Shown piece by piece: positions 3,657-37,488 of a stretch of 64,000 nucleotides of DNA (the first letter of the stretch is position 1; each line of letters begins with the position of its first letter). The translations under genes and the position numbers were made by a program. The notes under the pieces are model-generated. The model ran no database searches and was not told the DNA's origin. It saw nothing but the letters and a program-made list of their open reading frames with translations. The stretch covers positions 1 through 64,000 of the IMG/VR virus record IMGVR_UViG_3300008453_004667, one strand, 5' to 3'. Source of the DNA: a virus.

Positions 3657-3677
3657 TATTTTTTTAAGGATAATCCT

Positions 3678-7107: not shown

Positions 7108-7114
7108 ATAATAG

Positions 7115-9595: not shown

Positions 9596-9599
9596 AAAA

Positions 9600-12395: not shown

Positions 12396-12403
12396 ATAAG
12401 TCT

Positions 12404-13744
12404 ATGTCATCAATAATAACGAACACCTTTTCTACTTTACTCGCACAACAATTCATAAATTTATTGGATGTTGGTGCGAATACGTACTTGCCCTTAAATC
12501 GAAGGTCTTATCTTTTTGCGACTATTGGCAAACAAACGCCTTGGAATCAAGGTGACACTCCTCCTGTTTCTCCCGGACAATCCACCAGAGATTTGATTGA
12601 ATATTACAATAGGGGTATTGTAGCGAAGGTAATTCAATTAGACAATGTTTCTTTCGTGGTTCCGAGGTATAATTGGCAATCCGGAACGGTGTATTCTAGA
12701 TATGGTTGTACAGTTTGTCCTATTGGAACACCATTTTATGTTTTAAATTCTAAAAATCAAGTTTTCAAATGTTTAGATAATAATAATAGTATTGCATCTA
12801 CGGATGAACCTGAATTATTTTTATCTGCGACTTCTTTAGAAGAACCATTTTTTATAACTTCTGACGGATATAAATGGAAGTATTTGTACACTATAAGTTC
12901 TGATCAAAAACAAAAATTTTTAAATCAAGATTGGATGCCGGTTGCTTATAATAGATTTGTTAGAGCAACTGCAATTAATAGAAGTATTGATATCGTTAGA
13001 ATAGGAAATGCTGGAAACAATTATGTTGATGGTCCAACACAAAGTATAATTACTATTGTTGGTGATGGAACCGATGCCGTTTTAAAAGCAAATGTTGTTG
13101 GTGGAAATGTAGTAAATATCGTTATTCAAAATAGAGGAAAAGATTATACCACAGCTAACTTAATATTTACTGATGTTGCGGGTGGCATAGGAACTGGTGC
13201 TTCAGCTAATGTAGTTTTATCTCCGCAAAATGGACATGGTTATGATCCGGTTGAAGAACTTTATGCAAATACTGTAATGTTTAATGTCGATTTTGATGGT
13301 AGTGTTGGTGGAATTTTTCCATCAGAAAATGAATTTAGAGAAGTTTCCTTAGTATACAATCCTTATATTAATAATACTGAGACATTGGCTTCAGCTGATA
13401 CATATACACTTTATAGTAAAGTTTTAGTGTCGCCTGGTGTTGGAGATTATAATAACGATGAAGTTATTATACAAGGTGACACTTTAGAAAATTCCACATT
13501 TAGTGCTGAAGTCATTTCATTTGATGAGGGTACTAATGTTATGTACCTTAATAATTTAAAAGGAACTTTTACACCCAATCAACCAGTAAAAGGATTGAGT
13601 AGTGGTTCAATACGAATAGGAATTAATGTAACAAACCCATCTTTAGAATTATATTCAGGAAAAATATTATTTGTTTCAAATAAAGTTCCTGTAACTAGAG
13701 ATCCAGACCAAACAGATAGAATTAGATTTATTTTAAGTTTCTAA
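12404..13744 (+). CDS. 8: Baseplate wedge subunit gp8
   Basis: The protein has 446 residues; T4 gp8 has 334. The opening TNTFSTLLAQQFINLLDV, then YLFATIGKQTPWNQGDTPP and the EEPFFITSDGYKWKYLYTIS segment are gp8 hallmarks. Residues about 190-280 carry the Gly-rich module seen also in gp6 and gp7 (NAGNNYVDGPTQSIITIVGD, then NRGKDYTTANLIF), which likely accounts for the extra length. It follows gp7 after 8 bases. Confidence 0.85.
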   Translation: MSSIITNTFSTLLAQQFINLLDVGANTYLPLNRRSYLFATIGKQTPWNQGDTPPVSPGQSTRDLIEYYNRGIVAKVIQLDNVSFVVPRYNWQSGTVYSRYGCTVCPIGTPFYVLNSKNQVFKCLDNNNSIASTDEPELFLSATSLEEPFFITSDGYKWKYLYTISSDQKQKFLNQDWMPVAYNRFVRATAINRSIDIVRIGNAGNNYVDGPTQSIITIVGDGTDAVLKANVVGGNVVNIVIQNRGKDYTTANLIFTDVAGGIGTGASANVVLSPQNGHGYDPVEELYANTVMFNVDFDGSVGGIFPSENEFREVSLVYNPYINNTETLASADTYTLYSKVLVSPGVGDYNNDEVIIQGDTLENSTFSAEVISFDEGTNVMYLNNLKGTFTPNQPVKGLSSGSIRIGINVTNPSLELYSGKILFVSNKVPVTRDPDQTDRIRFILSF

Positions 13745-20247: not shown

Positions 20248-23200
20248 ATGCCTACTTCACTAATACCAATTATTGCCAGAACTAACACTATCGATGAGTG
20301 GAGAATTCAAACTAATAAATCTGCTACAGATTTAAATGATCTTGGATTCTACACCTACGATAAAGCTCAAGGCACATTACTACTCTCGGGTACCTCCCTA
20401 TTAAGTATAACAGCTGAAGGAACACCGTTACAAGTAGCTAACAATGTTTTATTTCAAAGTAGTTTGACTCTTGGTAATACTCTTTTCTTAGGCATTCAAT
20501 CTTCAGCAACTGGTAATATTATTGCTGGTGGAACAATATCAGTTAGGGGTCCAGGACAATCTCTAAACGTGGCGAATAGTGTTTACGTGGGTAGAGACCT
20601 GCAAATTGTTCAAAATGTTTATACCAGTAATGTTATTGTAAATACTGACATAACCATAGCAAATAATTTAACTGTAACAACAGGAAAATTACGATTGAAT
20701 GGATCTGGAAATGTATCCTATATTAATACAGGTTCTTCTTTTACTAAAACGCTATATTCCGATCAAGTATATTCAACAAATGTAAGCACTGCAAACCTAT
20801 ATGCTTTATATGCTAAAGTTGATGTTTTAGATGATTTGTCTTTTGCTAGAATTATTACTTTAGATAATACTACTACAAATTCTCATATATTAAAAACTAA
20901 TGCCGCTACTTCAAATTTTTTAACAACTAAAAATTTAATAGCCAATGTAACAGCGAACATTGTAAATTTAGAATCGAATGTTGCTGTAATTAACGTAGCA
21001 ACAATAATTGATGGTAATGTAGTATCTCTAGTTTCAAACAATTCTACAATAAACATTTCTACCGTAAATACTTCTACGATATTGACTGGTAATGTAGTTT
21101 CATTAGTTTCAAACAATTCTATTTTAAATAATTCCACTGTAAATACATCTACGGTGTTGGTTGGTAATGTAGTAACACTTACTTCAAATAGTTCTACTAT
21201 AAATGTTGCTAGTATCAATTTAGCTTCGATTAATACTTTAACGACATGGAATATAACTTCCACAAATAGAATTACAGGAAATAGTATTGTAACAAATAAT
21301 ATCGTTTCTTCTACAATTAATACATCTATTTTAAATGTCACATCAAACTTATGGATGAGTACTGGTTCTTTAACAAGAATTTTTGCACCGAATGATCAGC
21401 ACGAATCTTTGACTGTTGATGGTAAAACTACTTTAAGAACTGCATTAATTACTAGTAATTTAACTGTTGAAGGAACTTGGACAGCTCTAGGTGATATTGA
21501 GTATGAAGTTGGTGAAATAATTTTAAATAAGAGAACACCAACAAACGCTGAAGCGACATTTAGAAATGAAAGACCTATAGGTGATGATGCGTTAATTAGA
21601 TGGAATGAAGCTGATGATAGATGGACTATTTCGAGAGGAAATACATATTCTTCCCTCTATGGAATTTTGGATGATAGTTTCTTAAGTTCATCAATAAACA
21701 GCACAAGTACTTCAAATGTTGCAACTTCTTTAGCTGTGAATACAGCCCATTTTGTTGCACAGACTTCGGGTATGTACGCTAACTCAGCATTTGCCGCACA
21801 GAATACAACAGGTAGTTATGCTAACTCAGCTTATGCTCAAGCAAATTTAGCATTTACCGCGGGAGGTGTTATAGCTGGAAGTTATGCCAATTCGGCTTAT
21901 CATACAGCTAATAGTGGATCATCATATGCGAATTCAGCTTTCACCCATGCAAATTCATCATTCATTCAAGCCAACACACCATCGCATGTAGCAAATTCTG
22001 CAGCACTTTATGCAAATGGTGCGTTCTTAAGGGCAAATACACCAACACATGTTGCAAACTCCGCGTCACTTTATGCCAATGCGGCTTTCTCTAAAGCCAA
22101 TACAGTTGCTACTGATTTAAATGACGTTGCTATTTCTACGGCTACAGCTGTACATACTTCAAGTTCTGCATCATTATATGCTAATGGAGCTTTCGCTAAA
22201 GCTAATAATTCTTCAGACGCTGTAGCTTTAGATAAAGCTACTTCTGGATCTGCATATGCTAACTCTGCATTTGCAGCAGCTAATAATGCTGTGCAGAAAG
22301 TTGCTCCTACACAGACGATTACTGGTGATCTTACTATAACCCGTAGATTAAATACTGCAAATCTTCAATTTGACGGAGATAGTGCTAGATATTTTGGTTC
22401 CAATTTTGTATTTAATTCGGATTTAAATCCAAATACATCTCCAGGTGAAAATGCTGCTATACAAGTTTATCGAGGAACTAATGCCTCTCCTGCTACATTC
22501 CAATGGAATGAAACATTAGATAAGTGGCAATTTGAAGATGGTGTAAATGGTTTACATAATTTGGAAGAATTTGCCAATAAAGCAAATAATATTACTGGTG
22601 GTGCAACTAATAAAATTCCATATCAAACAAACACTAGTGCAACACAATTCATTGATGCTCCTGCTGTTGCTAATCGTTTCTTAAAGTGGACAGGAACCGA
22701 GTTTACTTGGGCGGATGTTCCTGCTGCTGATTTAAATAATTTAAATGCTACCAATTTAACTTCTGGTACTGTGCCGAGTGGTAGACTAACCGGTACTTAT
22801 AGTATAAACATCAATGGAACAGCATCATCAGCATGTACTGCAACTACTGCTAGTTCGGCAACTAGTGCTACAAATGCTACAAATGTTATTGATGGTGGAA
22901 CTGTTCACACAAACACTATAAGATGTGATGATTTTGCAAATTTCTATTCGAACGTATTTTTTAGAAGTGGTGGAACAACAACGTCTAGAACTGACCCAAG
23001 TAATTTAGCTGCTTTAAAAGTTACTGGTGATGTTGCTGTTTCTAATGAAGTTTGGGCACTTCAGTTTCAAGGTGTCGCAGTGCGAGCCCTTTACGCTGAC
23101 TTGGCTGAAAAATATTTGTCCGATAAAAAATATCCTACAGGTACCATAATGATGGTTGGTGGCAAAAAAGAAGTTACTGCAGCAAAAGACACCAAAAAAC

Positions 23201-23460
23201 ACGCTATCATCGGAATCGTATCGGAGAAACCAGCATACGTAATGAATAATGACTTGAAAAATGGTTTAATAGTTGGACTTAAAGGTCGATTACCTGTTAG
23301 AATAATTGGTACTTGTGAAAAGGGTGATTTAATTACTGTATCTGAAAAGTCTGGTGTAGGTATTTCTATAAAAGAAAATGTAATTTTACCATTTAGAATT
23401 ATTGCTTTAGAAAATAAAGAAACTGAAGAAGAAGGTTTAATAGAAGTAGTTATTATGTAA
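20248..23460 (+). CDS. Tail fibre-like protein with YANSAF repeats and C-terminal G2-type domain
   Basis: This 1070-residue protein has an Asn/Thr-rich beta N-terminal third with repeats of NVVSLVSNNSTINISTVN type. Residues about 510-690 carry alanine-rich repeats (YANSAFAAQN, YANGAFLRANTPTHVANSAS) shared with the two larger fibres downstream. The last 130 residues (QGVAVRALYADLAEKYLSDK onward, with GLIVGLKGRLPVRIIGTCEK) resemble the peptidase G2 / intramolecular-chaperone type C-terminus of phage fibres that cleaves itself after trimerisation. I did not identify the catalytic residues. It is the last structural gene before the accessory island. Confidence 0.75.
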   Translation: MPTSLIPIIARTNTIDEWRIQTNKSATDLNDLGFYTYDKAQGTLLLSGTSLLSITAEGTPLQVANNVLFQSSLTLGNTLFLGIQSSATGNIIAGGTISVRGPGQSLNVANSVYVGRDLQIVQNVYTSNVIVNTDITIANNLTVTTGKLRLNGSGNVSYINTGSSFTKTLYSDQVYSTNVSTANLYALYAKVDVLDDLSFARIITLDNTTTNSHILKTNAATSNFLTTKNLIANVTANIVNLESNVAVINVATIIDGNVVSLVSNNSTINISTVNTSTILTGNVVSLVSNNSILNNSTVNTSTVLVGNVVTLTSNSSTINVASINLASINTLTTWNITSTNRITGNSIVTNNIVSSTINTSILNVTSNLWMSTGSLTRIFAPNDQHESLTVDGKTTLRTALITSNLTVEGTWTALGDIEYEVGEIILNKRTPTNAEATFRNERPIGDDALIRWNEADDRWTISRGNTYSSLYGILDDSFLSSSINSTSTSNVATSLAVNTAHFVAQTSGMYANSAFAAQNTTGSYANSAYAQANLAFTAGGVIAGSYANSAYHTANSGSSYANSAFTHANSSFIQANTPSHVANSAALYANGAFLRANTPTHVANSASLYANAAFSKANTVATDLNDVAISTATAVHTSSSASLYANGAFAKANNSSDAVALDKATSGSAYANSAFAAANNAVQKVAPTQTITGDLTITRRLNTANLQFDGDSARYFGSNFVFNSDLNPNTSPGENAAIQVYRGTNASPATFQWNETLDKWQFEDGVNGLHNLEEFANKANNITGGATNKIPYQTNTSATQFIDAPAVANRFLKWTGTEFTWADVPAADLNNLNATNLTSGTVPSGRLTGTYSININGTASSACTATTASSATSATNATNVIDGGTVHTNTIRCDDFANFYSNVFFRSGGTTTSRTDPSNLAALKVTGDVAVSNEVWALQFQGVAVRALYADLAEKYLSDKKYPTGTIMMVGGKKEVTAAKDTKKHAIIGIVSEKPAYVMNNDLKNGLIVGLKGRLPVRIIGTCEKGDLITVSEKSGVGISIKENVILPFRIIALENKETEEEGLIEVVIM

Positions 23461-24266: not shown

Positions 24267-25373
24267 ATGGTAGTAGATATAAACGTAACAAGTATCTGCA
24301 ATTTAGCTTGCACATATTGTTCCGAAGGTTTTGAATGTGGACTATCTACCGAGTTTGAAGAAAATACTTCTTTGACATTAGATAATGTTGAAGAATTTAT
24401 GGCTAAAATTTCTGATCCCAAAAAAGATGTTTATTTCTGGGGTGGTGAACCATTTGTTAATTGGGATTTTTGTAAAGGTGTCATAGAAAAATTTAAACAT
24501 GATCCTGGTTTTTCTTTTTTCTTTTATACAAATGGAACGTATTTAAAGAGATATTTAAAAGATTTGGTTAGAATTCACAATGAGATTCCCGGTAGATTAA
24601 AGTTGCAGGTTTCATATGATGGAAAGCCTGTAAACGACATCGCCAGAGTGACTAAATCTGGTACTCCATCGTCAGCAATGGTCAAAGCAAACTATATTGC
24701 AGCTAAAGAAGCTGGATTGAATGTTTCACTGAAATCTGTACTAACGTCTGAAAATTTCCACTTAATCTATGAAGCCTTTTTGGATGTCATAGAAATGGAT
24801 AAAAATTATTTTCCAACACCAGATTTATACAGCCAATTGACAGAAGAAGAATTTATGCCTAAATTGGAAGTATTAAAGGATGGATTGAAGAAAATTGCTA
24901 AACATATTTACGAAAATAAATTACCTCCTGAGAAGTTTGGATGGTTCCAACAATCTAGAGCTCTATGTGCAGCAGGTATAAATTACGTAAGTGTTGATTT
25001 AAACGGCGATTTGAGTCCTTGCCATGGATGCATGTACAAAGAATCGCATTCACATAAATTAGGAAATATTTTTAAAGTTGCAGATTTGGATCAGTTGATT
25101 GAAGAAAAATCTCAAATGTATAAGGATGCGTTGAAGAATCAACCTTTAGATTGTATGAACTGTGACAGTCAATTCTGTATGAAATGTAATGCGGCAACTT
25201 ATGAAAAATCAGAAAAAGAAACATATCTAGAAAAATGGAGTGATCATACAGCAAATTGGCAAGTCTGTAAAGTATTTAAGACAAACGAGATAGTACATCA
25301 CGCATTAAGAACTGCACTAAAGAGTTATAAAAAGCCTGTAATTAAAATTCAGGCTGAACAGTGTACAGTATAA
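24267..25373 (+). CDS. Radical SAM/SPASM-type protein 1
   Basis: This 368-residue protein has the radical SAM cluster motif CNLACTYC (Cys11, Cys15, Cys18) and the WGGEPF SAM-binding motif. The C-terminal part has the cysteine spacing of SPASM domains, which hold auxiliary Fe-S clusters: CAAGINY..., GDLSPCHGC, then CMNCDSQFCMKC and a final Cys. SPASM proteins include many peptide maturases (sactipeptide, ranthipeptide, PqqE types). RBS AAAGGAGAAAAA precedes the ATG. It starts a run of four radical SAM genes leading to the Cys-heptad protein at 28967, the most likely substrate by position (inference). Confidence 0.88.
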   Translation: MVVDINVTSICNLACTYCSEGFECGLSTEFEENTSLTLDNVEEFMAKISDPKKDVYFWGGEPFVNWDFCKGVIEKFKHDPGFSFFFYTNGTYLKRYLKDLVRIHNEIPGRLKLQVSYDGKPVNDIARVTKSGTPSSAMVKANYIAAKEAGLNVSLKSVLTSENFHLIYEAFLDVIEMDKNYFPTPDLYSQLTEEEFMPKLEVLKDGLKKIAKHIYENKLPPEKFGWFQQSRALCAAGINYVSVDLNGDLSPCHGCMYKESHSHKLGNIFKVADLDQLIEEKSQMYKDALKNQPLDCMNCDSQFCMKCNAATYEKSEKETYLEKWSDHTANWQVCKVFKTNEIVHHALRTALKSYKKPVIKIQAEQCTV

Positions 25374-25382
25374 GGATAATAA

Positions 25383-26507
25383 ATGTTTACATTAGAAGTA
25401 AGTGTTACTGAAAAGTGTAATCTAGGTTGTCCGTATTGTTATGTGGCAAACAGACCAACTTGGATGACGAAAGAAGTTTTTGATCAGGGTATGAAAGACC
25501 TGCCAAAATTAATGCAAAGGTCCGGTGATAAAGATTATCATGTAAGTTTTTTTGGTGGTGAACCTTTATTAAATTGGGACCTAATAACTCACGCTGTTCC
25601 TTATTTAAGATCGGATGATAAATGTAAAGGTATTAATATCATCACAAATTTAACGATGATTGATCAAGATAAAGCTAATTATTTGAGAAATAATGGTGTT
25701 GGCGTTTCTTGGTCTTTTGATGGTATGAGTTCTAATGAGAGTAGACCTTTACTTCCACTTTTGGAAAATACTAATCCAGAAACAGGCGAATTGTTTGATG
25801 GTATACTTTCGATGTATGAATATAAGAAAGATATCATAAAGAATTTGACAAACGGATGTAAGGTCATGATATGGCCAGGAAATACAAAAGACATGAAAGA
25901 GAATTTTGAATTTCTCTTAGATTGGGGTATAGATCATCCCGATTTTAGTATTGTTCGTGATGATGTTTGGACAGAAGATGATATAATACAGTTTAGATAT
26001 GAATGTGAAAGACTTGCAGATTTTTGGATAGAAAAGATAAAATCTGGTAAACCATGTTCAGTAGGATTTTTAAAACTAGCTATTTTAGATATTCTCTATG
26101 GTTTAGTGAAAGGTAAAAGACCTTTTGGTTGTTTTGCTGGAACTAATGGTGGAGTATTGATGAGTTCTGGGGAATTCTACCCTTGCGCTAGGTTTGCATC
26201 CAAAAAAATTATGAAAATGGATGAACAGTATAATTTTAGGTACTATCAAGACATTTTTAATCCAAAAAATTATGATAAATGTGAACCGTGTGATTTGAAA
26301 CAGGTGTGTAATGCCGGTTGTACATATTCTCAAATTATGAATGATAATAAACCATTAGATAGTATTTGTGAATTGTTCCACATATATTATGAACAAGCAA
26401 TGCGAGTGGTAGATGAGTGTAAAGACGAAAGAGTTTTCCAAGATTTGGTTTTAAATTATATCGAAAATGTTGGTGTTGAAAATGAAGGTGTGGAGTGTAG
26501 GAACTAA
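25383..26507 (+). CDS. Radical SAM/SPASM-type protein 2
   Basis: This 374-residue protein has the motif CNLGCPYC (Cys12, Cys16, Cys19), then FFGGEPLLNWD and TNLTMID. The C-terminal half carries a SPASM-like set of cysteines: CFAGTNGG, SGEFYPCARF, CEPCDLKQVCNAGC and a last Cys in DSICELF. This layout is common in anaerobic-sulfatase-maturase-like and peptide-modifying enzymes. It is 9 bases after radical SAM 1 behind AAGGATAATA. The two are only distantly similar, so they probably do different steps or recognise different substrates. Confidence 0.88.
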   Translation: MFTLEVSVTEKCNLGCPYCYVANRPTWMTKEVFDQGMKDLPKLMQRSGDKDYHVSFFGGEPLLNWDLITHAVPYLRSDDKCKGINIITNLTMIDQDKANYLRNNGVGVSWSFDGMSSNESRPLLPLLENTNPETGELFDGILSMYEYKKDIIKNLTNGCKVMIWPGNTKDMKENFEFLLDWGIDHPDFSIVRDDVWTEDDIIQFRYECERLADFWIEKIKSGKPCSVGFLKLAILDILYGLVKGKRPFGCFAGTNGGVLMSSGEFYPCARFASKKIMKMDEQYNFRYYQDIFNPKNYDKCEPCDLKQVCNAGCTYSQIMNDNKPLDSICELFHIYYEQAMRVVDECKDERVFQDLVLNYIENVGVENEGVECRN

Positions 26508-26508
26508 C

Positions 26509-27357
26509 ATGAAAATTGTTTCTTGCACCAGTCAAGATAAAATTCTTAGAATTAACTGGCATATATTAAATTGGTGTAATTTAAAATGTTCCTACTGTAA
26601 TGTAAAGGAACATTTGAGTTATGATTATAATGATAATACTCAAATTTCAAATAATTATAAATTGATTATAAGTAGATTAAAAACTATTTCTAAACCTTTT
26701 GAGATTTGTTTGACTGGTGGGGAACCAACATTACATCCCAATATCGAAGATATATTAAGTGGATTAAATGAAATTGAAAATTTAACTAAAATTTATTTTT
26801 TTACTAACTTAACTAGATCAGAAAATTTTTATAAAAATATAAAAAGTTTTTCGAAAGTTACATATTACGCATCCTTTCACCCCGAATATCACAAAGAAGA
26901 TTTTTTAGATAAGTGTAAAAATCTAAACTGTGAGGTTCATATAAGTATGATGCCTGAATATAAAAATTACATTTTAAAAATTATTGATAAGTGTAAGTTG
27001 GAGGATATAAAATTTACATTAAATTTTTTAAGAGACACAAAATATTATTCAAGTAATTTAGAAGAAGATTTTTTCGTAGAAGCTTCTACTGCTGAATCTA
27101 TGATTGATATGGATGTTTTATATGATAATGGCTTTCGAGAAAATACTACAAATTTAAGATTATTATACGATAAAAAAAATAATTTCAAAGGCTATAAATG
27201 TTTACCGGAATCTTTTCAAATAGAATTAAATAATGTAGTTAAAAATGTTTGCACTAACGAAATTATGCCATTATCTTTAAAAGATATTACGAAAAAGGTT
27301 ATTTGTCCAAAAGAAGTTTGTGAAGGTGGACTTATGATGTATCCTAAGGAAATTTAA
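26509..27357 (+). CDS. Radical SAM protein 3 (short C-terminal Cys region)
   Basis: I start this protein at the ATG at 26509 (282 residues), one base after the previous stop and preceded by GTAGGAAC. The cluster motif is CNLKCSYC (Cys23, Cys27, Cys30), followed by CLTGGEPTLHPN. The C-terminus has four further cysteines in the pattern CLPESF...NVVKNVC...VICPKEVC, which looks like a reduced auxiliary-cluster (twitch-type) domain. It resembles the proteins at 33948 and 34843 in this layout, suggesting paralogues. The substrate is unknown. Confidence 0.85.
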   Translation: MKIVSCTSQDKILRINWHILNWCNLKCSYCNVKEHLSYDYNDNTQISNNYKLIISRLKTISKPFEICLTGGEPTLHPNIEDILSGLNEIENLTKIYFFTNLTRSENFYKNIKSFSKVTYYASFHPEYHKEDFLDKCKNLNCEVHISMMPEYKNYILKIIDKCKLEDIKFTLNFLRDTKYYSSNLEEDFFVEASTAESMIDMDVLYDNGFRENTTNLRLLYDKKNNFKGYKCLPESFQIELNNVVKNVCTNEIMPLSLKDITKKVICPKEVCEGGLMMYPKEI

Positions 27358-27686
27358 TGAAGAAAAATTTTAAAAGTATTGTATCTATACCTATTAAAGT
27401 TGAGATGCAACCAGTTGAACATCAAAGCAATAAAGTTTTGACTGTTGATGATTTGTCGAAACAAATAGAAGAAGCTAAAAAGGGAAAAGCCAAAGTCGAT
27501 AGTAAGTATGTAGGATTTGAACTGACTGAGAGAGGACATTTATTCGAATATAAATTTGATTATGTTAAATTTTTGGACAATATGTCATTCATAATCAAAA
27601 CGGCAAAACAGCGTAAAGAAATGAATCCTAATAATGTCTATACAATGGATAAAACTAAAAGTGCTAGACGAAAAAAAGAAATATGA
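27357..27686 (+). CDS. Small lysine-rich protein, unknown function, within the radical SAM block
   Basis: This 109-residue protein overlaps the previous stop by one base (TAATG) and the next gene by 4 bases, so all three are likely translationally coupled. It is basic, especially the last 25 residues, with no membrane segment and no cysteine. A middle region with KYVGFELTERGHLFEYKFDY looks beta-rich. Its placement between two radical SAM genes makes a leader-peptide-binding or accessory role possible, but I see no clear RRE (PqqD-like) signature. Confidence 0.6.
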   Translation: MKKNFKSIVSIPIKVEMQPVEHQSNKVLTVDDLSKQIEEAKKGKAKVDSKYVGFELTERGHLFEYKFDYVKFLDNMSFIIKTAKQRKEMNPNNVYTMDKTKSARRKKEI

Positions 27687-28576
27687 ACGCCGAAACTTTC
27701 AAAAAAAAGTATCCTCAAATAAATTTTTATGTAGGACATGAAACGGATAAAACTGTAACTAAAGATTCGGGAGTAAATGTATTATATTTCACAAATAAAT
27801 GTAATTTAGCTTGTACATATTGTTATGAAGATTTGCCTGGTCGCCCTCCACAAATTTTGTCTAAAGAAGATATTAAAAAAAGTATCGATAGAGTTATAGA
27901 AAGAGAAGATCCCAATAGTCAAACATTATTTGTTCTTTTTGGTGGAGAAGCTACTATGGAATGGGATAATGTTTGTTATGCCATGAATTATGCCTATACA
28001 AAAAAGAAAAATGTTCATTTTAATTTAAACACAAATGGCATAAGATACCTAAAACAAAGTTTTATAGAGGAAACAAAAAACAATTTTTTTTATAAAAAAA
28101 ACTTGTTAAGTATAGACGTTAGTTTTGACGGTATAGGAAATTCGGATAGAGTCACACACGGCGGCAAGGATTCAACTAATTTAATGATCCAAGTTTTCAG
28201 AAATTTGAGAAAAAACGCAATGAAATTTAGGATAAGATACACCATACATCACAAAAACGTTCATAATTGCTATGAAGATATGTCCAATATTATTAGATAT
28301 TTTAAACCAACCCGTCTTATAACATCCGTTGCGTGGGAAACTCTCAATAAAATTCAAATTGACTTGCTCCAAAACATGAAAGAAAGTCTCAGGAAAGATT
28401 GGATAAATAGGATAATTGATGTTCCAGTTTGTGAGTTATTTTGTGACATGTGTGATGGATGTGGTGAGAGAAAGGAAGTAAAAACTTATTTTACTGACGA
28501 GGGTAATGTAACCACATATGGTAATTATGAGAACTCCCCGAAATTTCATGATTTTAAAGAAAAGGTAATAATATGA
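27683..28576 (+). CDS. Radical SAM protein 4
   Basis: This 297-residue protein has the cluster motif CNLACTYC (Cys40, Cys44, Cys47) followed by YEDLPGRPPQ, then LFGGEATMEWD in the place of GGEP and NLNTNGIRYL. Near the C-terminus there are four close cysteines (CELFCDMCDGCG), suggesting an auxiliary cluster or metal site. A 30-40 residue extension precedes the radical SAM core. It is the last radical SAM gene before the Cys-heptad protein and overlaps the small gene between them. Confidence 0.85.
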   Translation: MNAETFKKKYPQINFYVGHETDKTVTKDSGVNVLYFTNKCNLACTYCYEDLPGRPPQILSKEDIKKSIDRVIEREDPNSQTLFVLFGGEATMEWDNVCYAMNYAYTKKKNVHFNLNTNGIRYLKQSFIEETKNNFFYKKNLLSIDVSFDGIGNSDRVTHGGKDSTNLMIQVFRNLRKNAMKFRIRYTIHHKNVHNCYEDMSNIIRYFKPTRLITSVAWETLNKIQIDLLQNMKESLRKDWINRIIDVPVCELFCDMCDGCGERKEVKTYFTDEGNVTTYGNYENSPKFHDFKEKVII

Positions 28577-28965
28577 GCACTGATAGAGAAATTGTAATTG
28601 AAAAGTTAACGAGTATTTCACAAAATATTAAAGAGATATCGGAATATGATGAAGGCCTCGCCAACTTAATTTGGATAGGTTTTGACACAGCTATGAGTTT
28701 AGCACAATCTATTTCTGAAAATAATGAGAAAAAGGAACAAATTGATATTTCTGTTTACATTCAACAAATTTGTGATGCTTTGGGTGTTGATATTGAACAA
28801 ATGGTTTTATCAATTATTCAAAATAACAATACTCAAGAATCTAGTAATAAAGAGCCGGACTTGGAAACTTTAGACTTTATAACATCCGATCTTGATGACT
28901 ATGAAAAGTTTTTAGCAAAAAGTTCAGCAAAAAATAATTTAGATTTTTTATCAAAGGAAATATAA
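28573..28965 (+). CDS. Small acidic protein of unknown function before the Cys-heptad gene
   Basis: This 130-residue protein is acidic, mostly helical by composition (many Glu, Ile, Leu, Ser), and has a single cysteine. The tail (EPDLETLDFITSDLDDYEKF) is strongly acidic. It overlaps radical SAM 4 by 4 bases (ATGA) and ends one base before the Cys-heptad gene, so the three appear to be co-translated. It could be a chaperone or binding partner for that protein; no family is recognised. Confidence 0.6.
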   Translation: MSTDREIVIEKLTSISQNIKEISEYDEGLANLIWIGFDTAMSLAQSISENNEKKEQIDISVYIQQICDALGVDIEQMVLSIIQNNNTQESSNKEPDLETLDFITSDLDDYEKFLAKSSAKNNLDFLSKEI

Positions 28966-28966
28966 G

Positions 28967-29575
28967 ATGGCTTTAGGTAAAATGTTTGACACTACTCTTG
29001 GAGTAGGTACTAACACAACTCCTGCTGGTGAACATAAAAGGCTATCAATAACTATACAAGGAACTGTTGGTAGTAATGCAGTGAATTATGATCTTGCGAA
29101 TGTTGTAGCTGGAGAGGATTTAATAACTAGATCGTTTTTTCAATCGCTGCTTGATAAAGCAAAAGAAGAAAATACGAGAAGGGGAGGCAGCGCCACTAAA
29201 GGTTCGTTATCAACAACAAACATTAGAGCTGCCGACTTTAATAATATCCGAGCACTTTTTGCTGTTGCCGATTCTAGGACAAATCAAGTTTATAATGATT
29301 GGTCTGGTGCAAATGCTAATTTGCCTAATGGTCCGACAGTAAATAGTCCCACAATAACAACCTTTCCTACTACTGCTGCACCAACTGGTGTTCCAGCAGC
29401 AGTTACCACAGATCCAGCAACTCAAATTAGAGCTACAATTCTGAATTCTCTCATTAATGCTTTGAATTCTGCTGGGCAAGTTTGCACCTGTAATTGTAAT
29501 TATTGTACTTGTAATTGCAATTATTGTACATGTAACTGTAATTACGCATGTACCTGCAACTGTAATTACTCCTAA
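28967..29575 (+). CDS. Candidate radical-SAM substrate: protein with four C-terminal Cys heptads (CTCNCNY)
   Basis: This 202-residue protein has three parts. Residues 1-120 look like a folded phage-type domain, including an AADFNNIRALFAVADSRTNQ segment reminiscent of tail proteins. Residues about 122-152 are a Pro/Thr/Ala-rich linker. Residues 173-202 hold four copies of CTCNCNY, three direct and the fourth after one Ala, ending in Ser: 12 cysteines in 30 residues. The only cysteines in the protein are in this tail. Position after four radical SAM genes and this layout (leader-like body, repetitive Cys-rich core) suggest a RiPP-like precursor or a structural protein with a modified tail. A metallothionein-like metal-binding tail is the alternative. 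RBS AAGGAAATATAAG precedes the ATG. Confidence 0.8.
   Translation: MALGKMFDTTLGVGTNTTPAGEHKRLSITIQGTVGSNAVNYDLANVVAGEDLITRSFFQSLLDKAKEENTRRGGSATKGSLSTTNIRAADFNNIRALFAVADSRTNQVYNDWSGANANLPNGPTVNSPTITTFPTTAAPTGVPAAVTTDPATQIRATILNSLINALNSAGQVCTCNCNYCTCNCNYCTCNCNYACTCNCNYS
29483..29569 (+). repeat. Four-fold heptad repeat CTCNCNY (coding)
   Basis: Units lie at 29483-29503, 29504-29524, 29525-29545 and 29549-29569, with an Ala codon (29546-29548) before the last. The encoded heptads are identical while the codons for Cys, Thr, Asn and Tyr vary between copies. Confidence 0.95.
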
Positions 29576-31441: not shown

Positions 31442-32320
31442 GTGTCTTTAGTAAATCTGAGAAACTATGATTTAGTTATAACTACTTCATTTGGTTTCAA
31501 ATTTGGAATTTGTGGTCATTTATTTGAAATGATTGAATATTATTGGGCTATAAAAAATTGGACAAATCTAAATCCTTGTATACTATTGTCCGATGGTACT
31601 ACAATAGACGAATTTAATATAGCTTTAAACACGAAATATGATAATCTAGTTGTTGAAAATTTAATATACCATCCTTTTCCAAAACTATTATTGTCAAAAA
31701 ATTTATTGATAGTTGACGGATCTTCAAGACTTGATAATTCGGAAATATATACAGATAATTTTTTTCTATTCAGATGTCATGAAAAAAATTATGACTTTTA
31801 TATAAACAATAAAGCGCAATGTCACTTATTTCAAGATTTTGAAATATATGATGATATTCCTAAAAAAATAAATGTTTTTGATTATAAGAAAAAATTATTA
31901 TATTCAAAATTTAAAAAAATAAATGATGATGTAGAAAATTCTGTAATGTTTTATTTGACAGATGTTAGTAGATTTATGTCTGAAGAAACAATAACTGAAA
32001 TTTCCAATAAATATTCTTTCAACAACACAGTAGTATTTACAAATAAACCAGAACTTTATACAAAAATAAAAACATATAAAGTTCCAGTCCCAGACATGTG
32101 GAATAAATTTTCTACATATGTTTATACTAAATTACCTGGCAAAAAAGATTGTTCCAATAGATTTATTTTAGAGTGTATGCACTATGATAAAGAAGTTGTT
32201 TATGATATAGATTATTATGATAAAGCTTTAGAAATTAGAAAAAAGGATGGAATAAAAAATACATCTTTAGAACAAGGTGATTTTTTTATCAATTATATCA
32301 ATGAACAAATTAAGTGTTAA
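31442..32320 (+). CDS. Hypothetical protein, possible glycosyltransferase-like (GTG start)
   Basis: This 292-residue protein is read from a GTG at 31442, 4 bases after the previous stop, with no clear ribosome binding site. It has alternating beta/alpha character (DLVITTSFGFKFGICGHLFE near the start). The late CSNRFILECMHYDKEVVYD segment is reminiscent of the donor-binding end of GT-B glycosyltransferases. That is a weak argument, and no DxD or nucleotide-binding motif is certain. The next gene overlaps its end. Confidence 0.45.
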   Translation: MSLVNLRNYDLVITTSFGFKFGICGHLFEMIEYYWAIKNWTNLNPCILLSDGTTIDEFNIALNTKYDNLVVENLIYHPFPKLLLSKNLLIVDGSSRLDNSEIYTDNFFLFRCHEKNYDFYINNKAQCHLFQDFEIYDDIPKKINVFDYKKKLLYSKFKKINDDVENSVMFYLTDVSRFMSEETITEISNKYSFNNTVVFTNKPELYTKIKTYKVPVPDMWNKFSTYVYTKLPGKKDCSNRFILECMHYDKEVVYDIDYYDKALEIRKKDGIKNTSLEQGDFFINYINEQIKC

Positions 32321-33293
32321 AAAAATACTGATAGATTATGATAGACCTATTAACAATAGAGCTAAATTAGATACTGGTAAACTCTGTAATTATAAATGTG
32401 AATTTTGTTACTATAAAAATAGTTTGTCTGAGAGAGATGAACTTGATAAAATCTACAAAAGAATAGATTATTTACTTGACTATGGCATAAAAGAAATCGA
32501 TCTTAGTGGTGGTGAAAGTAGTGTAGAACCGAATTGGTTTAATATATTAAATTATTGCCAAAATAAATTTGATAGAATTAGTTGCCTTAGTCACGGAGGT
32601 AAATTTAGTGATAAAGAATTTATTCAAAAAAGTTTCGACTTAGGTTTAAGAGAGATACTCTTTAGTCTACATTGTACGGATGAAAGTGTTCATGATAAAA
32701 TTGTAGGCAAAAAAGGAGCTTTTAAAAATTTAATTAAAGCTATTGAGAACTCCCACCGTTTAAATATTGAAGTTAGATTGAACACAACTGTATATCATGA
32801 AAACTACAATAAAATAGACACTTCTTTTATAAAATCTTTAAACCCCACCCAAGTTAATTTTATTGCTCTCAATTATTGGAGAGACAATAAAGATTTTTAT
32901 CCTATTGATTACGGAACAATTTGTTCCTATGTTTCAAATTATATTGATGACCTTAAGGACTCAACCGAAGTTAATGCTAGATATTTTCCTTATTGTTTTA
33001 TGCCATCAAAAGAAAAATATATAAAAAACCATTATCATCATATATATGACTTTAAAGATTGGAATAAAGCGGTTTATAGTGGAACATTAGACACTAAAAA
33101 AAATTATACGCACAATGAAAAAGTAGAACATTCTTTCTCTGAAGCGGAACGAATGAGAATTTATAGTTACTTTAAAACCGAAGAATGTACAAAGTGTAAA
33201 TATTTTTATATATGTGATGGTATAGAAAATGAACTTAAAGATAAAGTTAGTCCAAATCCTGTTTTTGGAGAAAAGATAAGATTAATATGGTAA
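32301..33293 (+). CDS. Radical SAM protein 5
   Basis: The start is taken at the ATG at 32301 (330 residues); a GTG at 32277 is an alternative that overlaps the previous gene further. The cluster motif is CNYKCEFC (Cys29, Cys33, Cys36). The SAM-binding region LSGGESSVEPNW has GGE but not the usual P. LHCTDESVHDKIVGKKGAF recalls MoaA/PqqE-type enzymes. The C-terminus has CTKCKYFYICDG, a three-cysteine cluster that could bind an auxiliary Fe-S cluster. It is followed by a glycosyltransferase with a 7-base overlap. Confidence 0.85.
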   Translation: MNKLSVKKILIDYDRPINNRAKLDTGKLCNYKCEFCYYKNSLSERDELDKIYKRIDYLLDYGIKEIDLSGGESSVEPNWFNILNYCQNKFDRISCLSHGGKFSDKEFIQKSFDLGLREILFSLHCTDESVHDKIVGKKGAFKNLIKAIENSHRLNIEVRLNTTVYHENYNKIDTSFIKSLNPTQVNFIALNYWRDNKDFYPIDYGTICSYVSNYIDDLKDSTEVNARYFPYCFMPSKEKYIKNHYHHIYDFKDWNKAVYSGTLDTKKNYTHNEKVEHSFSEAERMRIYSYFKTEECTKCKYFYICDGIENELKDKVSPNPVFGEKIRLIW

Positions 33294-33973
33294 ACATTGA
33301 TTTATCTATTTTAATACTTACGCATAATAGGCCTAAACTTTTTGAAAGAAGTTTAAATTCAATTTTATCATATTTAACTCCAAAAATAGAAGTAATTGTA
33401 AATAATGATAGTTCTGATATAAAAGAAATTGAAAATACTAATGTAAATTATTATTATGAAAAATTTAATAATATATCAAGTGTATATGAATTTTTATTTC
33501 TTAAGTCTAAAGGAAAATATATTTATTTTTTGGAAGATGATGACTATTTGAGGAAGCAATTTTTCGAACAAAGTTTTGATGCTGATATTATAGCTGGAAA
33601 TTATTGTCCTACCTATAAGCCAGATAATACTTTTGAAATAATAAATTTGTTTAAAGATGAAGTTATACACGATAAATGTGAATTTTTAAATAAATTAAAC
33701 TTAGAACATTTACAATTAGGACAATTTATATTTAAAAGAAGTGTAATTGAAGATTTTTATTTTGGAATAGATAACAATATTCATAATGATATTAGACTGG
33801 TCTATCACGCTTCACAAAAGTCGAAGAAATTTAGAATGACCAATAAAGTATTTTACTACCAAACAAAAGATGGTAATGATAATATTTCTTTTCCTGGAAC
33901 AAAAAAAAGTATAAACGTAACGGCATCTTTGGACTTTTTAAAAAATTATGAAATACAAAATACAACATCATAA
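33287..33973 (+). CDS. Family 2 (GT-A) glycosyltransferase
   Basis: In this 228-residue protein the N-terminal LSILILTHNRPKLFERSLNS and the EDDD at residues 83-86 (IYFLEDDDYL) are the nucleotide-sugar and metal-binding motifs of GT2 enzymes. It transfers a sugar from a nucleotide donor; donor and acceptor cannot be told. At 228 residues it is a minimal catalytic domain with no membrane segment. It overlaps radical SAM genes at both ends (7 and 26 bases), so it is likely part of the same pathway. Confidence 0.82.
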   Translation: MVNIDLSILILTHNRPKLFERSLNSILSYLTPKIEVIVNNDSSDIKEIENTNVNYYYEKFNNISSVYEFLFLKSKGKYIYFLEDDDYLRKQFFEQSFDADIIAGNYCPTYKPDNTFEIINLFKDEVIHDKCEFLNKLNLEHLQLGQFIFKRSVIEDFYFGIDNNIHNDIRLVYHASQKSKKFRMTNKVFYYQTKDGNDNISFPGTKKSINVTASLDFLKNYEIQNTTS

Positions 33974-34850
33974 AGATCAAGATCCGGATCATATTAATAT
34001 TCATTGGGATAGTCTTACTATTTGTCAACTCAAGTGTTCTTATTGTTACGCTAGAAATGAGTATGGTAAAGAATGGGGTAAACTATCTAGTAAAAAAACA
34101 ATTGATGCTGTATTGGATGCTTTAAATCGAAGTAGTTTGAATTTTAATTTGGGTTTGTTGGGTGGCGAACCAACTTTAGGTCCTTATTATTACCATATTT
34201 TAGACTCAATCAGTAAAATGGAGAAATTTAATTGGGTTTATGTTGTAACAAATGCTGAAAAGGATTTGACACTTCACCCACATTATGATAAACTGGCTTT
34301 CCTATTCAGTTACCACCCGGCCGATTGTACGGATGAAAATAGATTTCTCAATAATATACATCATATGCTGGGTAGAGGTTATAAATGTAAAGTGAATGTT
34401 ATGCTTCACCATGATAAAAGTTTATGGCCAAAAATAAAAAATATGTTTGAAACTTTGGAAAAAATACCCAATTTAAAAATACATCCACACTTTTTATATG
34501 GTAATAGTATCACTAAATTGTTTAACTATAGAAAAGATTTTTGGGAATATTTTTCTTTTTTAGAGTCGTATGAAAAAGAATTAAAATATGATGATGATTT
34601 TTTTAATGATTATATTATATTTAGGGATAAATTAACCAATTTTAAAGGATGGAATTGTTACAACAATAATTATGAAATTGACGTTAGAGGTAACGTTGTT
34701 AAATTTTGTATGCCAAAAACTGATAATATTAATCTCATAAGCAATAGAGATTTTTTTAAAAATATAACCAAAACTGTTCCTATGGTTTGTCCACATAAAG
34801 CTTGCAATTGTGATGGTCTTTTAAAACAATTAAAAATTAAAAATGAGTAA
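33948..34850 (+). CDS. Radical SAM protein 6
   Basis: This 300-residue protein has the cluster motif CQLKCSYC (Cys26, Cys30, Cys33), then LLGGEPTLGPYYYHIL. The C-terminal cysteines (NCYNNNYEI, NVVKFCMPK, MVCPHKACNCDG) follow the same pattern as in radical SAM 3 (26509), supporting a paralogous pair with reduced auxiliary-cluster domains. FSYHPADCTDENRF also aligns with SFHPEYHKEDF of that protein. It overlaps the GT2 gene by 26 bases and the next gene by 8. Confidence 0.85.
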   Translation: MKYKIQHHKDQDPDHINIHWDSLTICQLKCSYCYARNEYGKEWGKLSSKKTIDAVLDALNRSSLNFNLGLLGGEPTLGPYYYHILDSISKMEKFNWVYVVTNAEKDLTLHPHYDKLAFLFSYHPADCTDENRFLNNIHHMLGRGYKCKVNVMLHHDKSLWPKIKNMFETLEKIPNLKIHPHFLYGNSITKLFNYRKDFWEYFSFLESYEKELKYDDDFFNDYIIFRDKLTNFKGWNCYNNNYEIDVRGNVVKFCMPKTDNINLISNRDFFKNITKTVPMVCPHKACNCDGLLKQLKIKNE

Positions 34851-35601
34851 GATTGTTGAATGGGAAATTACACTTAAATGTAATTATAAATGTGAGTATT
34901 GTACAAATTTGGATCCTAGTATGCGACCAGAATTGACTGAAGAAAAAATAAAAGATTTTATAAAAAAATTAGGTGAGACATATCCCGGTGTAGAAATATT
35001 TATTTTTGGAGGGGAACCATTTGTTCATCCAAAAATAAATTTTATAATAAAAACATTTAATGAATATAATATTCCATTTGTTATACAGACGAACTTCAGT
35101 AGTTATAGTAGAAAAACAATTCAAAAAATAAAAGATCCATTTAAAATTAATATAAGTGTTCATCCTACAGAAACGTCTATAGAAGATATAGTTCAGGGAT
35201 TAAAAGATACTAAAGTTAATATTAAAACTATAGATGTGATGTACACCGGTAAAGAAGCTATAGATTATTATTTTGCAGTAAAAAAATCTTTAGACCACGA
35301 CAATTTATTTTTAACTCCAGTAACAGACTTTGGTGATGGTCATAGTGATACTTTACTCGCACAATATCTTTCTTTAAAAAACAATTTAATGTATCGAAAA
35401 ATAATTAAATTTGAAGATATTGAAAGACTAGGTAAACAACGAAGTGATCTTTGGATAGATTCTAATTTTAACACTTTTGGAAAACCTTGTTTATATAAAG
35501 ATAAATACTTCCTCTACTCACCCAACTTAGATTTGTATAACTGTTGTTATAGAATCAAAGTCAACAAATTGTGCCCGAAAACAAAATGTTTTCTAATGTA
35601 A
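34843..35601 (+). CDS. Radical SAM protein 7
   Basis: This 252-residue protein has the motif CNYKCEYC (Cys13, Cys17, Cys20), then FIFGGEPFVHPKINF. The C-terminus has PCLYKD, YNCCYRIK, and a final CPKTKC, again the C...C...CPxxxC arrangement seen in radical SAM 3 and 6. It is the shortest of the eight radical SAM proteins; the protein ends only two residues after the last Cys motif. It overlaps the previous gene by 8 bases. Confidence 0.85.
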   Translation: MSKIVEWEITLKCNYKCEYCTNLDPSMRPELTEEKIKDFIKKLGETYPGVEIFIFGGEPFVHPKINFIIKTFNEYNIPFVIQTNFSSYSRKTIQKIKDPFKINISVHPTETSIEDIVQGLKDTKVNIKTIDVMYTGKEAIDYYFAVKKSLDHDNLFLTPVTDFGDGHSDTLLAQYLSLKNNLMYRKIIKFEDIERLGKQRSDLWIDSNFNTFGKPCLYKDKYFLYSPNLDLYNCCYRIKVNKLCPKTKCFLM

Positions 35602-35602
35602 T

Positions 35603-36436
35603 ATGAGATATCTTTTAGCCGGAGCTTTTAGTAAGTTTGTTCCCTTAATAAAATTTTTAAGTCAAAACATAGTCGATTCTAAAGAGTTGGTGGTTTATGA
35701 CGGCATTAATAAATGTAAATGGAATGGAGGTAGAATAAACAGGGATGTTTATTATAAAGATAATTTGATAGAATATTATTATAGTAAGAATATCAAGATT
35801 GCTTTAACATTTAGTAATCATAATATTGATTTGACTGACGAATTGGGAAATCATTTACTGGAGAAATTTCACAAAAAAGGAAATGCTTTAATTATTGTGA
35901 ATGATGACTTGAGAAAATATGTTAGAGAAAAATTTCCATTATACGATTTAATTTACAGTATTACTGGAATGGGACTATTAAACATACCTTTACAAGATAA
36001 AGATATAGAATTTTATAAAAAATTGGAAGAAAATTATGATTGGATCGTTCCTAGGTTTGAACACATATTTGATCCTAGGTCTAACGAACTGGACAAAACA
36101 AAGTGGGAAGTAATGCTGAATGATACTTGTGTTTATGGATGTAAACATTGGGATGCACACTTCAAGGCAATTGCAGATGAAAATACCGCCGGTAGACCGT
36201 ATAGTAAGGAAGTGGAAGAATGTTGGCTTCCTAAGTTTGATTTCAACAAAGATAGTAAATATGAATGTATGGATATAAAACCATTAGCGATGGAAAAATT
36301 AATAAAAGATGGAGTTAGGAGTTTTAAAATTACTGGTAGAGAAATGAAAGATGATGAATACTATGGAGAATTAATGAGATTCGTTTTAAATAGCAAATCT
36401 GTTAATATTGTAAAATGGCCAACTGGGAAAAAATAA
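35603..36436 (+). CDS. Four-cysteine protein A (possible U32-like; paralogue of 38683)
   Basis: This 277-residue protein shares with the one at 38683 the motifs CxWNGGRINR (Cys38), a YSITG segment, NDxCxxxC followed by HF (Cys176, Cys180), and a late Cys (Cys222) followed by GVRSFKITGRE. The layout (about 280-300 residues, one early Cys, a CxxxC near 180, end segment with fKIxGR) recalls U32-family proteins such as UbiU/UbiV, which hold a 4Fe-4S cluster and hydroxylate substrates. That is my inference; the identity is not certain. It lies between two radical SAM genes and overlaps the next by 22 bases. Confidence 0.55.
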   Translation: MRYLLAGAFSKFVPLIKFLSQNIVDSKELVVYDGINKCKWNGGRINRDVYYKDNLIEYYYSKNIKIALTFSNHNIDLTDELGNHLLEKFHKKGNALIIVNDDLRKYVREKFPLYDLIYSITGMGLLNIPLQDKDIEFYKKLEENYDWIVPRFEHIFDPRSNELDKTKWEVMLNDTCVYGCKHWDAHFKAIADENTAGRPYSKEVEECWLPKFDFNKDSKYECMDIKPLAMEKLIKDGVRSFKITGREMKDDEYYGELMRFVLNSKSVNIVKWPTGKK

Positions 36437-37488
36437 AAGTAGTTAGAAAAAAAGAGGACATGCAAGTTGGGCAAATAAAGCCTAAATGTTCTTACAAGGT
36501 TTTACAATTAAACAACAGTTCAATAATGGAGTCTAAGTATGTCGTTACATTTAGAATTACTGAAGCGTGCGACCTCAAATGTAATTATTGTCACTGGCAT
36601 AGTGGTAAACATTACAAATACGAAGATATTATAAAAACGATTGATAAGATATTTGAATTCTTACAAAAAAATAAATTAAAGTCTGTTCTGTTTTACTATC
36701 ATGGTGGAGAACCAACAACACATCCTAAGATAGTTGATATTCTGAAGTATATTCATGATAAGGGAAAACAAACAAATATTATTGCGTCTAATGAGATGCA
36801 AACCAATTTGACTTTAAAAGAATCAAAGTTAAAAGAAATACTACCATATTGTGACCTTTTTAATGTAAGCTTTCATTACTTGGAATTAAAAAGATTAAAA
36901 AAATTTAATAATTTTAATCACAATTGGAATCTTTTAAAAGAAATGAATGTGGAGATTCATAATTTAGATATCATGTTGGAGAATGTGGAGAGAACTCATT
37001 TATTTTATAATGGAGAAATTATTGAAATATATCCAGATGAGTTCTATAGTAGTATTGTAGATTATCTGAAATATGATAAAATTGTTAATAGTGAAATGAT
37101 ATATGGATTTTGTCACTACAAATACCCTCCAGAAATCGAAGCTAAACATATGGAGTTTTATAAAAAATATAATAAAACAGAACAGAAATATCTTATAGAT
37201 GATGTTGAGTATACCACGAATGATTTATTTAAATTCGGTATAGATGCTAGAGGTTGGCATTGTGCAGCCGGTAATGAAAGTATAACAATTAATGGTGATG
37301 GTAATGTTTTTAATTGTGGTATTCATATGACAAACTACATACGAGAAAGTTCTCCAGAAAAAGCATATACAAATTTAGTACATGATGAAATTGGGGTAAC
37401 AAAATTAACTTTATTATATAAAACTGGCACAATATGCCGTTGGGATTATTGTGGCGGCGATTTTTACTTAAGTAGAAAACCCAAATGA
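36415..37488 (+). CDS. Radical SAM protein 8
   Basis: In this 357-residue protein the radical SAM core begins unusually late: CDLKCNYC has Cys52, Cys56 and Cys59, after about 45 residues of N-terminal extension. YHGGEPTTHPKIVDIL follows. The C-terminus has WHCAAGNESITINGDGNVFN, then CGIH and ICRWDYCGGDF, a SPASM-like pattern with a reduced second half. The ATG at 36415 is inside the end of the previous gene. Next is the 2OG-oxygenase-like gene. Confidence 0.85.
   Translation: MANWEKIKVVRKKEDMQVGQIKPKCSYKVLQLNNSSIMESKYVVTFRITEACDLKCNYCHWHSGKHYKYEDIIKTIDKIFEFLQKNKLKSVLFYYHGGEPTTHPKIVDILKYIHDKGKQTNIIASNEMQTNLTLKESKLKEILPYCDLFNVSFHYLELKRLKKFNNFNHNWNLLKEMNVEIHNLDIMLENVERTHLFYNGEIIEIYPDEFYSSIVDYLKYDKIVNSEMIYGFCHYKYPPEIEAKHMEFYKKYNKTEQKYLIDDVEYTTNDLFKFGIDARGWHCAAGNESITINGDGNVFNCGIHMTNYIRESSPEKAYTNLVHDEIGVTKLTLLYKTGTICRWDYCGGDFYLSRKPK

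Follow-up and report, generated by a model that had tools for sequence, protein, structure and literature searches.

The DNA stretch studied here (the window) comprises positions 1 to 64,000 of the IMG/VR virus record IMGVR_UViG_3300008453_004667, which has a total length of 72,718 bases. At 24267-29575 it carries a run of radical S-adenosylmethionine (rSAM) genes leading into a gene whose product ends in an array of cysteine heptads. Comparison with related loci makes it likely that the virus owns here a module for maturing a protein of the fibre tip or of a similar part of the virion surface, working in the manner of modules for ribosomally synthesized and post-translationally modified peptides (RiPPs). 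Many large phages keep three rSAM enzymes, here called A, B and D, together with the array protein, and this co-retention suggests that these viruses chemically cross-link part of their own particles.

Layout of the locus and its cysteine array

The locus consists of seven open reading frames (ORFs), all on the + strand (lengths in amino acids, aa), the last of which contains two further elements of interest:

24267-25373, +, rSAM/SPASM enzyme A, core, 368 aa (PF04055 8.8e-16; SPASM PF13186 narrowly passed, 21.6 bits with a cut-off of 21.5 bits)
25383-26507, +, rSAM/SPASM enzyme B, core, 374 aa (PF04055; SPASM-type Cys set in alignment)
26467-27357, +, rSAM C, accessory, 296 aa (PF04055; at the same position only in some close relatives)
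27357-27686, +, small protein, 109 aa, conserved module partner (22 unique sequences including the window's own)
27683-28576, +, rSAM enzyme D, core, 297 aa (PF04055; four C-terminal Cys: C250, C254, C257, C260)
28573-28965, +, small all-helical protein, 130 aa (18 unique sequences including the window's own)
28967-29575, +, heptad protein, 202 aa, proposed fibre-tip protein and substrate (PHROG_26958 on residues 154-201)
29426-29479, +, helix just before the array (I.A..IN.LI..IN.AG), candidate recognition element (recurrence and model)
29483-29569, +, four CTCNCNY heptads with 12 Cys, proposed modification sites (sequence)

A and B are separated by 9 bases and a single base precedes the heptad gene; the remaining junctions overlap, in gene order, by 41 bases (B/C, taking the first ATG), 1, 4 and 4 bases. 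An earlier sequence-only reading had described four rSAM and two small genes leading co-directionally into a gene for four CTCNCNY heptads, with 12 Cys in the last 30 residues and no other Cys in the chain. Both descriptions were confirmed, the Cys all lying at residues 173-199. The four heptads show 22 pairwise base differences, 100% of them silent, although of the 21 bases in a unit only about 3.0 are silent sites. This indicates that selection on the protein, and not fresh DNA duplication, holds the repeat.

Across 52 unique array proteins 414 repeats were counted (3-28 per protein), spaced mostly by 7 (194) or 8 (151) residues. Cys at repeat positions 1, 3 and 5 was set by the search pattern, so that its constancy there is no evidence. 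Position 2 is Thr in 292 of the 414 repeats; position 4 is Asn, Asp or Gln (202, 166 and 31), position 6 is Asn in 370, and position 7 is Tyr, His or Phe (330, 36 and 33). Array proteins are mostly 140-530 aa long, with one of 125 aa, and carry the array close to the C terminus. A stretch like I.A..IN.LI..I was seen by eye before most arrays, those of Campylobacter phages included, and was found by a loose regular expression in 49 of the 52 proteins; the model of the window's heptad protein has a helix at residues 156-170, ahead of the array. Tandem copies of the heptad gene were observed in two loci (four at L009:6045-8609, three at L013:7962-10019), in which the N-terminal parts differ and the arrays are nearly identical.

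Three rSAM enzymes are retained with the array

Arrays were sought in IMG/VR by one protein-guided and two DNA-pattern scans, followed by scans with enzyme profiles; L-numbers label the loci and contigs so retrieved. Arrays were found in 60 contigs (46 from the array scans and 14 from the enzyme-profile scans, as counted from the tables), which are not independent: seven share a 100% identical protein, others are near-copies, and the Campylobacter phages CPt10, CP21 and CP220 account for three. By the exact two-heptad pattern the array is virus-specific, with one match among 84,980 prokaryote genomes, on a 3-kb contig of a metagenome-assembled genome (MAG) that also carries an A-type rSAM gene; this exact DNA pattern would miss variant arrays.

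The sequence-only reading had named heptads in many phages without rSAM genes as the finding that would speak against it. Of 34 viral array records, 31 have a PF04055 match. These records were drawn from the 46 array contigs then known, omitting near-copies, and were searched together with one MAG (35 in total). The three array contigs without an rSAM match measure 22.7, 16.1 and 43.8 kb, and the two shorter ones end within about 0.9 and 1.6 kb of the array.

From the enzyme side, a scan with the B profile alone recovered 56 contigs with a full-length orthologue, 52 of which have the array, in the flank in 49 cases and elsewhere in the genome in CPt10, CP220 and CP21. The four without it are L096, L099, L109 and L120. 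On the contig of L096 (3300008107_005910, also L160) the heptad gene is broken and the repeats are gone, by assembly or in nature; the contig of L099 ends after B (L138 is likewise cut by a contig end); that of L109 starts at B, in a lineage that apparently has the array upstream; and L120 is an 8.6-kb contig with B and A and no array on it. None of 11 weak or partial B matches had the array pattern. Among the best 80 of 223 matches of the A-profile scan were 22 strong A relatives, of which 16 have the array pattern, L160 has the broken gene and five (L164, L166, L167, L169, L187) have other Cys-rich tips.

We hand-picked 35 lineages from array- or B-positive loci, so that the counts are no population estimate; the array of one of them, L166, is degenerate. 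Enzyme B occurs in all 35, A in 34 and D in 32, with shortened ORFs for A in L103 and L117 and for B in L111. Among the array loci, six or more gene orders were seen: A-B-D-array (window type), A-D-B-array (L103), B-D-A-array (L019, L020, L022, L028, L029, L117, L119), B-A-array without D (L010, L056, L166), B-A-array-D (L131) and array-A-B-D (L107, L110, L113), the genes being dispersed in CP220. In a tree of 104 rows, A, B and D formed one clade each (SH-aLRT 96, 99 and 99), and the same 22 lineages formed one clade inside each of them (SH-aLRT 96, 99 and 95). As the clade labels came from the profiles, the monophyly is partly expected and the matching inner split is the informative part; the tree was made by a quick method, and long branches, including D of CP220, were flagged.

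The comparison of rSAM genes around arrays leaves A, B and D as the core, and C, E, F, G and H outside it. The four-gene locus of the sequence-only reading stands in so far as all four genes exceed the PF04055 cut-off; the conserved set is three. C was rejected as a core member, being in place in L007 and L031 and not in L008, L009, L012, L014, L030 and others. The distance between Cys-array ORFs and rSAM ORFs was not used, since the loci had been chosen for one or the other and the test is confounded. A single-sequence scan with rSAM F (33948) as control was uninformative, returning 10 loci at 91-100% identity, all on heptad contigs.

Dispersed enzyme genes in Campylobacter phages

Using a 534-aa relative as query against 50,697 phage records, the array protein was found in 15 records, representing 11 CP220-type Campylobacter phages. 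Enzyme B was found in the same 11 phages (15 records) with at least 36% identity over 93%, and fifteen weaker rSAM matches came from human-gut phage records. A tblastn search of the phage collection with the window's 202-aa heptad protein gave no match, presumably because of low-complexity filtering and divergence.

In the 177.5-kb genome of CP220, the heptad gene lies at 160.9-162.5 kb, A at 164.7 kb, B at 16.4 kb and D at 83.9 kb. CP220-type B (404 bits) and D (193 bits) were recovered nearly full-length by profiles built without any Campylobacter row, and A, B and D of CP220 keep the auxiliary Cys with spacing as in the window. By these profile assignments, the three enzyme genes of the Campylobacter phages are dispersed yet all kept. 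In these phages the neighbour of the array gene carries the annotation RNA ligase and tail fibre attachment catalyst, and the array gene itself lacks the start of the S74 domain considered below. In the CP21 record, at about 78.9-79.5 kb, enzyme A is apparently split into two ORFs (118 and 298 aa), while B and D matched intact. The phage NCTC12673, one sister-genus phage in neither the array nor the B list, gave no rSAM match.

Cysteine sets and family assignment of the enzymes

The sequence-only reading had noticed SPASM-like cysteine sets in two of the rSAM products, and these are A and B. In A, the auxiliary Cys C234, C252, C296, C299, C304, C307 and C334 are invariant in 13 aligned rows. 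In B, seven SPASM-type Cys are invariant in 11 rows, the family set being CX12GX4C...CX2CX5CX3C...C; B has no Pfam SPASM match and its assignment comes from the aligned family. Both thus combine CX3CX2C with seven auxiliary Cys, and D has only four C-terminal Cys.

In two distant lineages (the window and L022), PapB came first in NCBIfam for each of A, B and D (six of six cases), always below the cut-off. For L022 the scores against PapB NF047865 were 103.3 (A), 114.7 (B) and 61.7 bits (D). Enzyme B scored 87.4, 56 and 66.2 against TIGR03974, TIGR04115 and TIGR03978, where cut-offs are 425, 350 and 370, so that the thresholds of the SCIFF, CXXX-repeat and His-Xaa-Ser families were not reached. 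The solved structure closest to A and B by sequence profile is 5wgg/5why, which we take to be the thioether-forming enzyme CteB.

S74 context and proposed placement at a fibre tip

The sequence-only reading had regarded the array as a tail of the protein. In the window the array is indeed C-terminal, the chain ending with CNCNYS-stop right after it, and 11 of the 52 chains stop, as in the window, at most 6 residues after the last CxCxC. In 30 of the 52 unique proteins, however, the last repeat runs into an SDxx(L/V)K S74 start, with exactly two residues between in 24; the S74 chaperone domain is a hallmark of maturing tail fibres, and this points to a fibre tip. Eight of the 30 continue to domain length and 22 stop 12-17 residues past the Ser or slightly sooner. 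Peptidase_S74 (PF13884) was found above its cut-off right behind the array in six of six long proteins (L013, L014, L015, L027, L031, L039), and in three of four separate downstream ORFs (L111, L119, L122), L107 being below it.

In endosialidases the equivalent Ser and a Lys form the auto-cleavage dyad that acts after trimerisation (PMC3742443). By analogy, S74 behind the array suggests that the array would be the exposed C terminus of a trimeric fibre tip. We also observed split S74 domains (L111:13167, L119:14397, L122:14763), in which the heptad ORF closes with the first residues of the domain and the remainder is encoded by its own ORF in another frame; this could be due to frameshifting, translational coupling or a two-chain chaperone.

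Genomic surroundings and small proteins

The surroundings of the locus are those of a T4-like myovirus, with baseplate-region genes (tail tube cap, hub and wedge proteins) at 229-13744 of the window. Judged by the best 12 of 2331 records, the closest matches of the wedge protein (7520-9595) are in phages of Pelagibacter, Methylophilales and Synechococcus, at about 36-43% identity. One further gene of note lies upstream:

20248-23460, +, tail-fibre-like protein with a Peptidase_G2-like C terminus (PF11962 25.3 bits, cut-off 25; PHROG tail fiber 2.4e-9)

The 109-aa small protein is present also in loci with a different gene order, and gave no family match above cut-off in Pfam, PHROG or NCBIfam. 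The 130-aa protein is conserved immediately 5' of the heptad gene within the window's group. Considered as a RiPP recognition element (RRE), it gave an all-helix model with no fold match in the PDB at E <= 0.001. Judged by their recurrence, the two small proteins are conserved partners of the array module.

Four more rSAM genes (32277, 33948, 34843 and 36415; span 32277-37488) lie 3' of the heptad gene, outside the core, and their conservation among the window's relatives is uneven. In the same island, the products of 40947-42290 and 43312-44577 have N termini that presumably resemble FAD-dependent proteins of the tryptophan-halogenase type.

Other cysteine-rich tips

Several loci carry related tips with other repeats. 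CxCNxx hexads stand directly before S74 (PF13884 above cut-off) and beside an A-like rSAM gene in L167:11130-11840, L169:11097-11921 and L187:11113-11832, and these loci are apparently a sister version of the same maturation. In L164:11770-12444, and possibly in L229:2238-3467, a Cys stretch precedes a region resembling Hint/intein domains (Pfam below cut-off), as though another type of self-cleaving domain stood in for S74. Short phage proteins with alternating CxCxCx (L195:9262-9789, L196:8638-8895, L197:4543-4944, L206:6274-6762, L212:9269-9781, L214:5965-6540) adjoin SPASM-like rSAM genes of other subfamilies with products of about 435-490 aa, in L197 within about 5 kb. By regular expression, other Cys-rich tips were found in 9 of 58 weaker A-scan loci, seven of which were deemed ORF-supported. 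At L140:4990-5874, in the locus of a weak B match, a 294-aa protein holds 51 Cys, in repeats of the CDCxxRTAVC type; the neighbouring 438-aa rSAM protein is only 23% identical to B. Radical SAM cross-linking of Cys-rich virion tips might even be a general, virus-evolved way of hardening or functionalising fibres, with several repeat chemistries (CTC[ND]CNY heptads, CxCNxx hexads, alternating CxCxCx), each with its own SPASM enzyme(s), and often S74 or Hint-like self-cleavage afterwards to lay the finished tip bare; this is a tentative extension, which we find slightly more doubtful than credible.

Discussion

We propose that three PapB-like rSAM enzymes (A, B and D), with the small partner proteins, would act on a C-terminal array of CTC(N/D)CNY repeats, guided probably by the helix that precedes it. 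The Cys sulfurs would most likely be joined to neighbouring residues as thioethers, giving a rigid, covalently knotted tip. In the relatives, S74, either complete in the chain or carried on in another ORF, would form a trimer and release itself by cleavage at Ser-Asp, thereby exposing the array end, and in the window gene the chain simply stops there, with no S74 to remove. The sequence itself, the conservation of the repeats, the joint retention of the three enzymes through many gene orders and the S74 context of relatives were observed directly; that the array is the substrate is our inference, as are the thioether links, the trimer, the self-cleavage and the placement on the virion. PapB joins Cys to a downstream Asp or Glu (Cys-Xn-Asp, n 0-6), with a loss of 2 Da per link (PMC9413430). 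In the consensus heptad each Cys has an Asn or Asp at most three residues downstream.

A number of observations weigh against this proposal. No NCBIfam cut-off was reached by the enzymes, and against PapB NF047865 (cut-off 340 bits) those of the window scored 78.5 (A), 132.2 (B) and 79.9 bits (D). No RRE (PqqD-like) family was found in the Pfam hits or in the 25 best NCBIfam rows per protein, the enzymes begin almost at the CX3CX2C motif, and the 130-aa small protein is modelled as all helix. Positions 4 and 6 of the repeat are mostly Asn, whereas the PapB acceptor is Asp or Glu, so that the acceptor may differ from that of PapB; moreover, the Cys-X3-Asp/Glu motif of PapB substrates is absent from the consensus heptad, where with units spaced by 7 the Cys+4 position falls on C, Y or T. 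Co-retention has its gaps: D is not beside the array in L010, L056 and L166, A was counted as missing in L021 (only 86 bits, and omitted from the tree), and L064 has D but neither A nor B on its 50-kb contig. As for the tip, a whole S74 follows in the same chain in only 8 of the 52 proteins, and the window's heptad protein has no S74 domain and no Pfam match. Structure prediction of its N-terminal part, which to the sequence-only reading had looked structural, gave an ordered core with no fold match in PDB or BFVD at E <= 0.001 (the best BFVD match, E 0.05, is an uncharacterised protein), and the array region, with a model confidence (pLDDT) below 50, is in effect unmodelled. Finally, CPT_0180, the product of the CP220 array gene, is not one of the 11 virion proteins of CP220 named in a gel legend (PMC2853527); for IBB_35 virions, 38 proteins are tabulated in a supplement (PMC3322345).

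It is unlikely that the enzymes modify the array to a product other than a thioether, such as epimerised residues, C-C or ether cyclophanes at Asn/Tyr or C-methylated residues, leaving the Cys for metal or disulfides. The great constancy of position 6 (Asn 370/414) and position 7 (Tyr/His/Phe 399/414) would fit such chemistry, and several cyclophane maturases also score in NCBIfam, again below cut-off. On the other hand, a ranthipeptide maturase of the PapB type came out top for each of the three enzymes in the two lineages compared, the nearest solved structure of A and B is 5wgg/5why (presumably CteB), and the related loci differ in the repeat (CPCNCNF, CxCNxx hexads, CxCxCx) and share the Cys, which was itself the search criterion.

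That the arrays are unmodified, metal-binding or disulfide-stapled tips similar to metallothionein, with the rSAM enzymes serving another pathway such as that of nearby sugar or nucleotide genes, seems quite improbable. CxCxC does resemble metal ligands, the rSAM matches of CP220 are mostly non-core, and the window's four further rSAM genes adjoin sugar-type genes (their function judged from N-terminal sequence); this explanation nevertheless leaves unaccounted for why A, B and D stay with the array when gene orders change and the genes are dispersed, and why the B scan alone recovered the array in 52 of 56 contigs. Enzymes of the rSAM/SPASM type with Cys-rich partners usually make small peptides, so the heptad protein might also give rise to a secreted peptide (a bacteriocin or signal carried by the phage) and not be part of the virion. 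We consider this very improbable: the array sits C-terminally in larger proteins, some with S74 and often in tail-fibre neighbourhoods, and next to the core genes of 17 loci we noticed neither a transporter nor a RiPP peptidase, although no systematic search for them was made.

The remark of the sequence-only reading that it knew of no described phage system of this kind needs qualifying: we did not find the link between rSAM enzymes and array in print, but both halves have been published for CP220, for which 11 rSAM genes and a 21-bp intragenic repeat in CPT_0180 are reported (PMC2853527). In the portions of the Campylobacter phage papers covered, the rSAM genes and the 21-bp repeat are noted and no connection is drawn between them. 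Among the matches listed from open-access PMC text, which leaves subscription papers and most preprints outside, no paper ties rSAM enzymes to a phage structural protein, and the string CTCNCNY is absent from the text searched.

If the proposed maturation by A, B and D is correct, viruses would own multi-enzyme radical chemistry for building virion parts, a type of maturation that appeared for no virus among the matches listed from open-access PMC text. It would then also give a partial reason for the 11-12 rSAM genes of Campylobacter group II phages, a puzzle since 2010, of which it covers three; in CP220 we found 11 rSAM matches, most of them not of core type. Covalently knotted phage peptide tips would be a natural model for constrained-peptide display. 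CP220-type phages are cultured, so that this reading can be tested at once.

Among known systems, the S74 chaperone fibres of the endosialidase type share with some relatives of the window an S74 domain, here directly behind the array. They differ in that the window protein is without S74, that in 22 of the 52 proteins the domain is reduced to its first 12-17 residues, the remainder being seen as an ORF of its own in three cases, and that a Cys array stands in front of S74 where a triple beta-helix would be expected. CP220 and CPt10 (Firehammervirus) have the array protein with A, B and D, their genes being dispersed. With the sactipeptide/SCIFF maturases (5wgg, which we take to be of the CteB type), A and B have in common the two auxiliary clusters expected from the SPASM Cys set, whereas the TIGR03974 cut-off is not reached and a SCIFF-like precursor was not seen at the locus. 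The locus also resembles ranthipeptide PapA/PapB (freyrasin), where an rSAM enzyme with SPASM also adjoins a Cys-repeat substrate and PapB is the best NCBIfam match; the repeats here are CTC[ND]CNY and not Cys-X3-Asp, and scores lie far under the PapB cut-off. In its proposed working the locus is like a ranthipeptide-type maturation, yet stays below the family cut-offs and differs in its owner, a virus, in its substrate, a C-terminal array of a structural-looking protein in place of a small peptide, and in the number of its enzymes, three paralogues.

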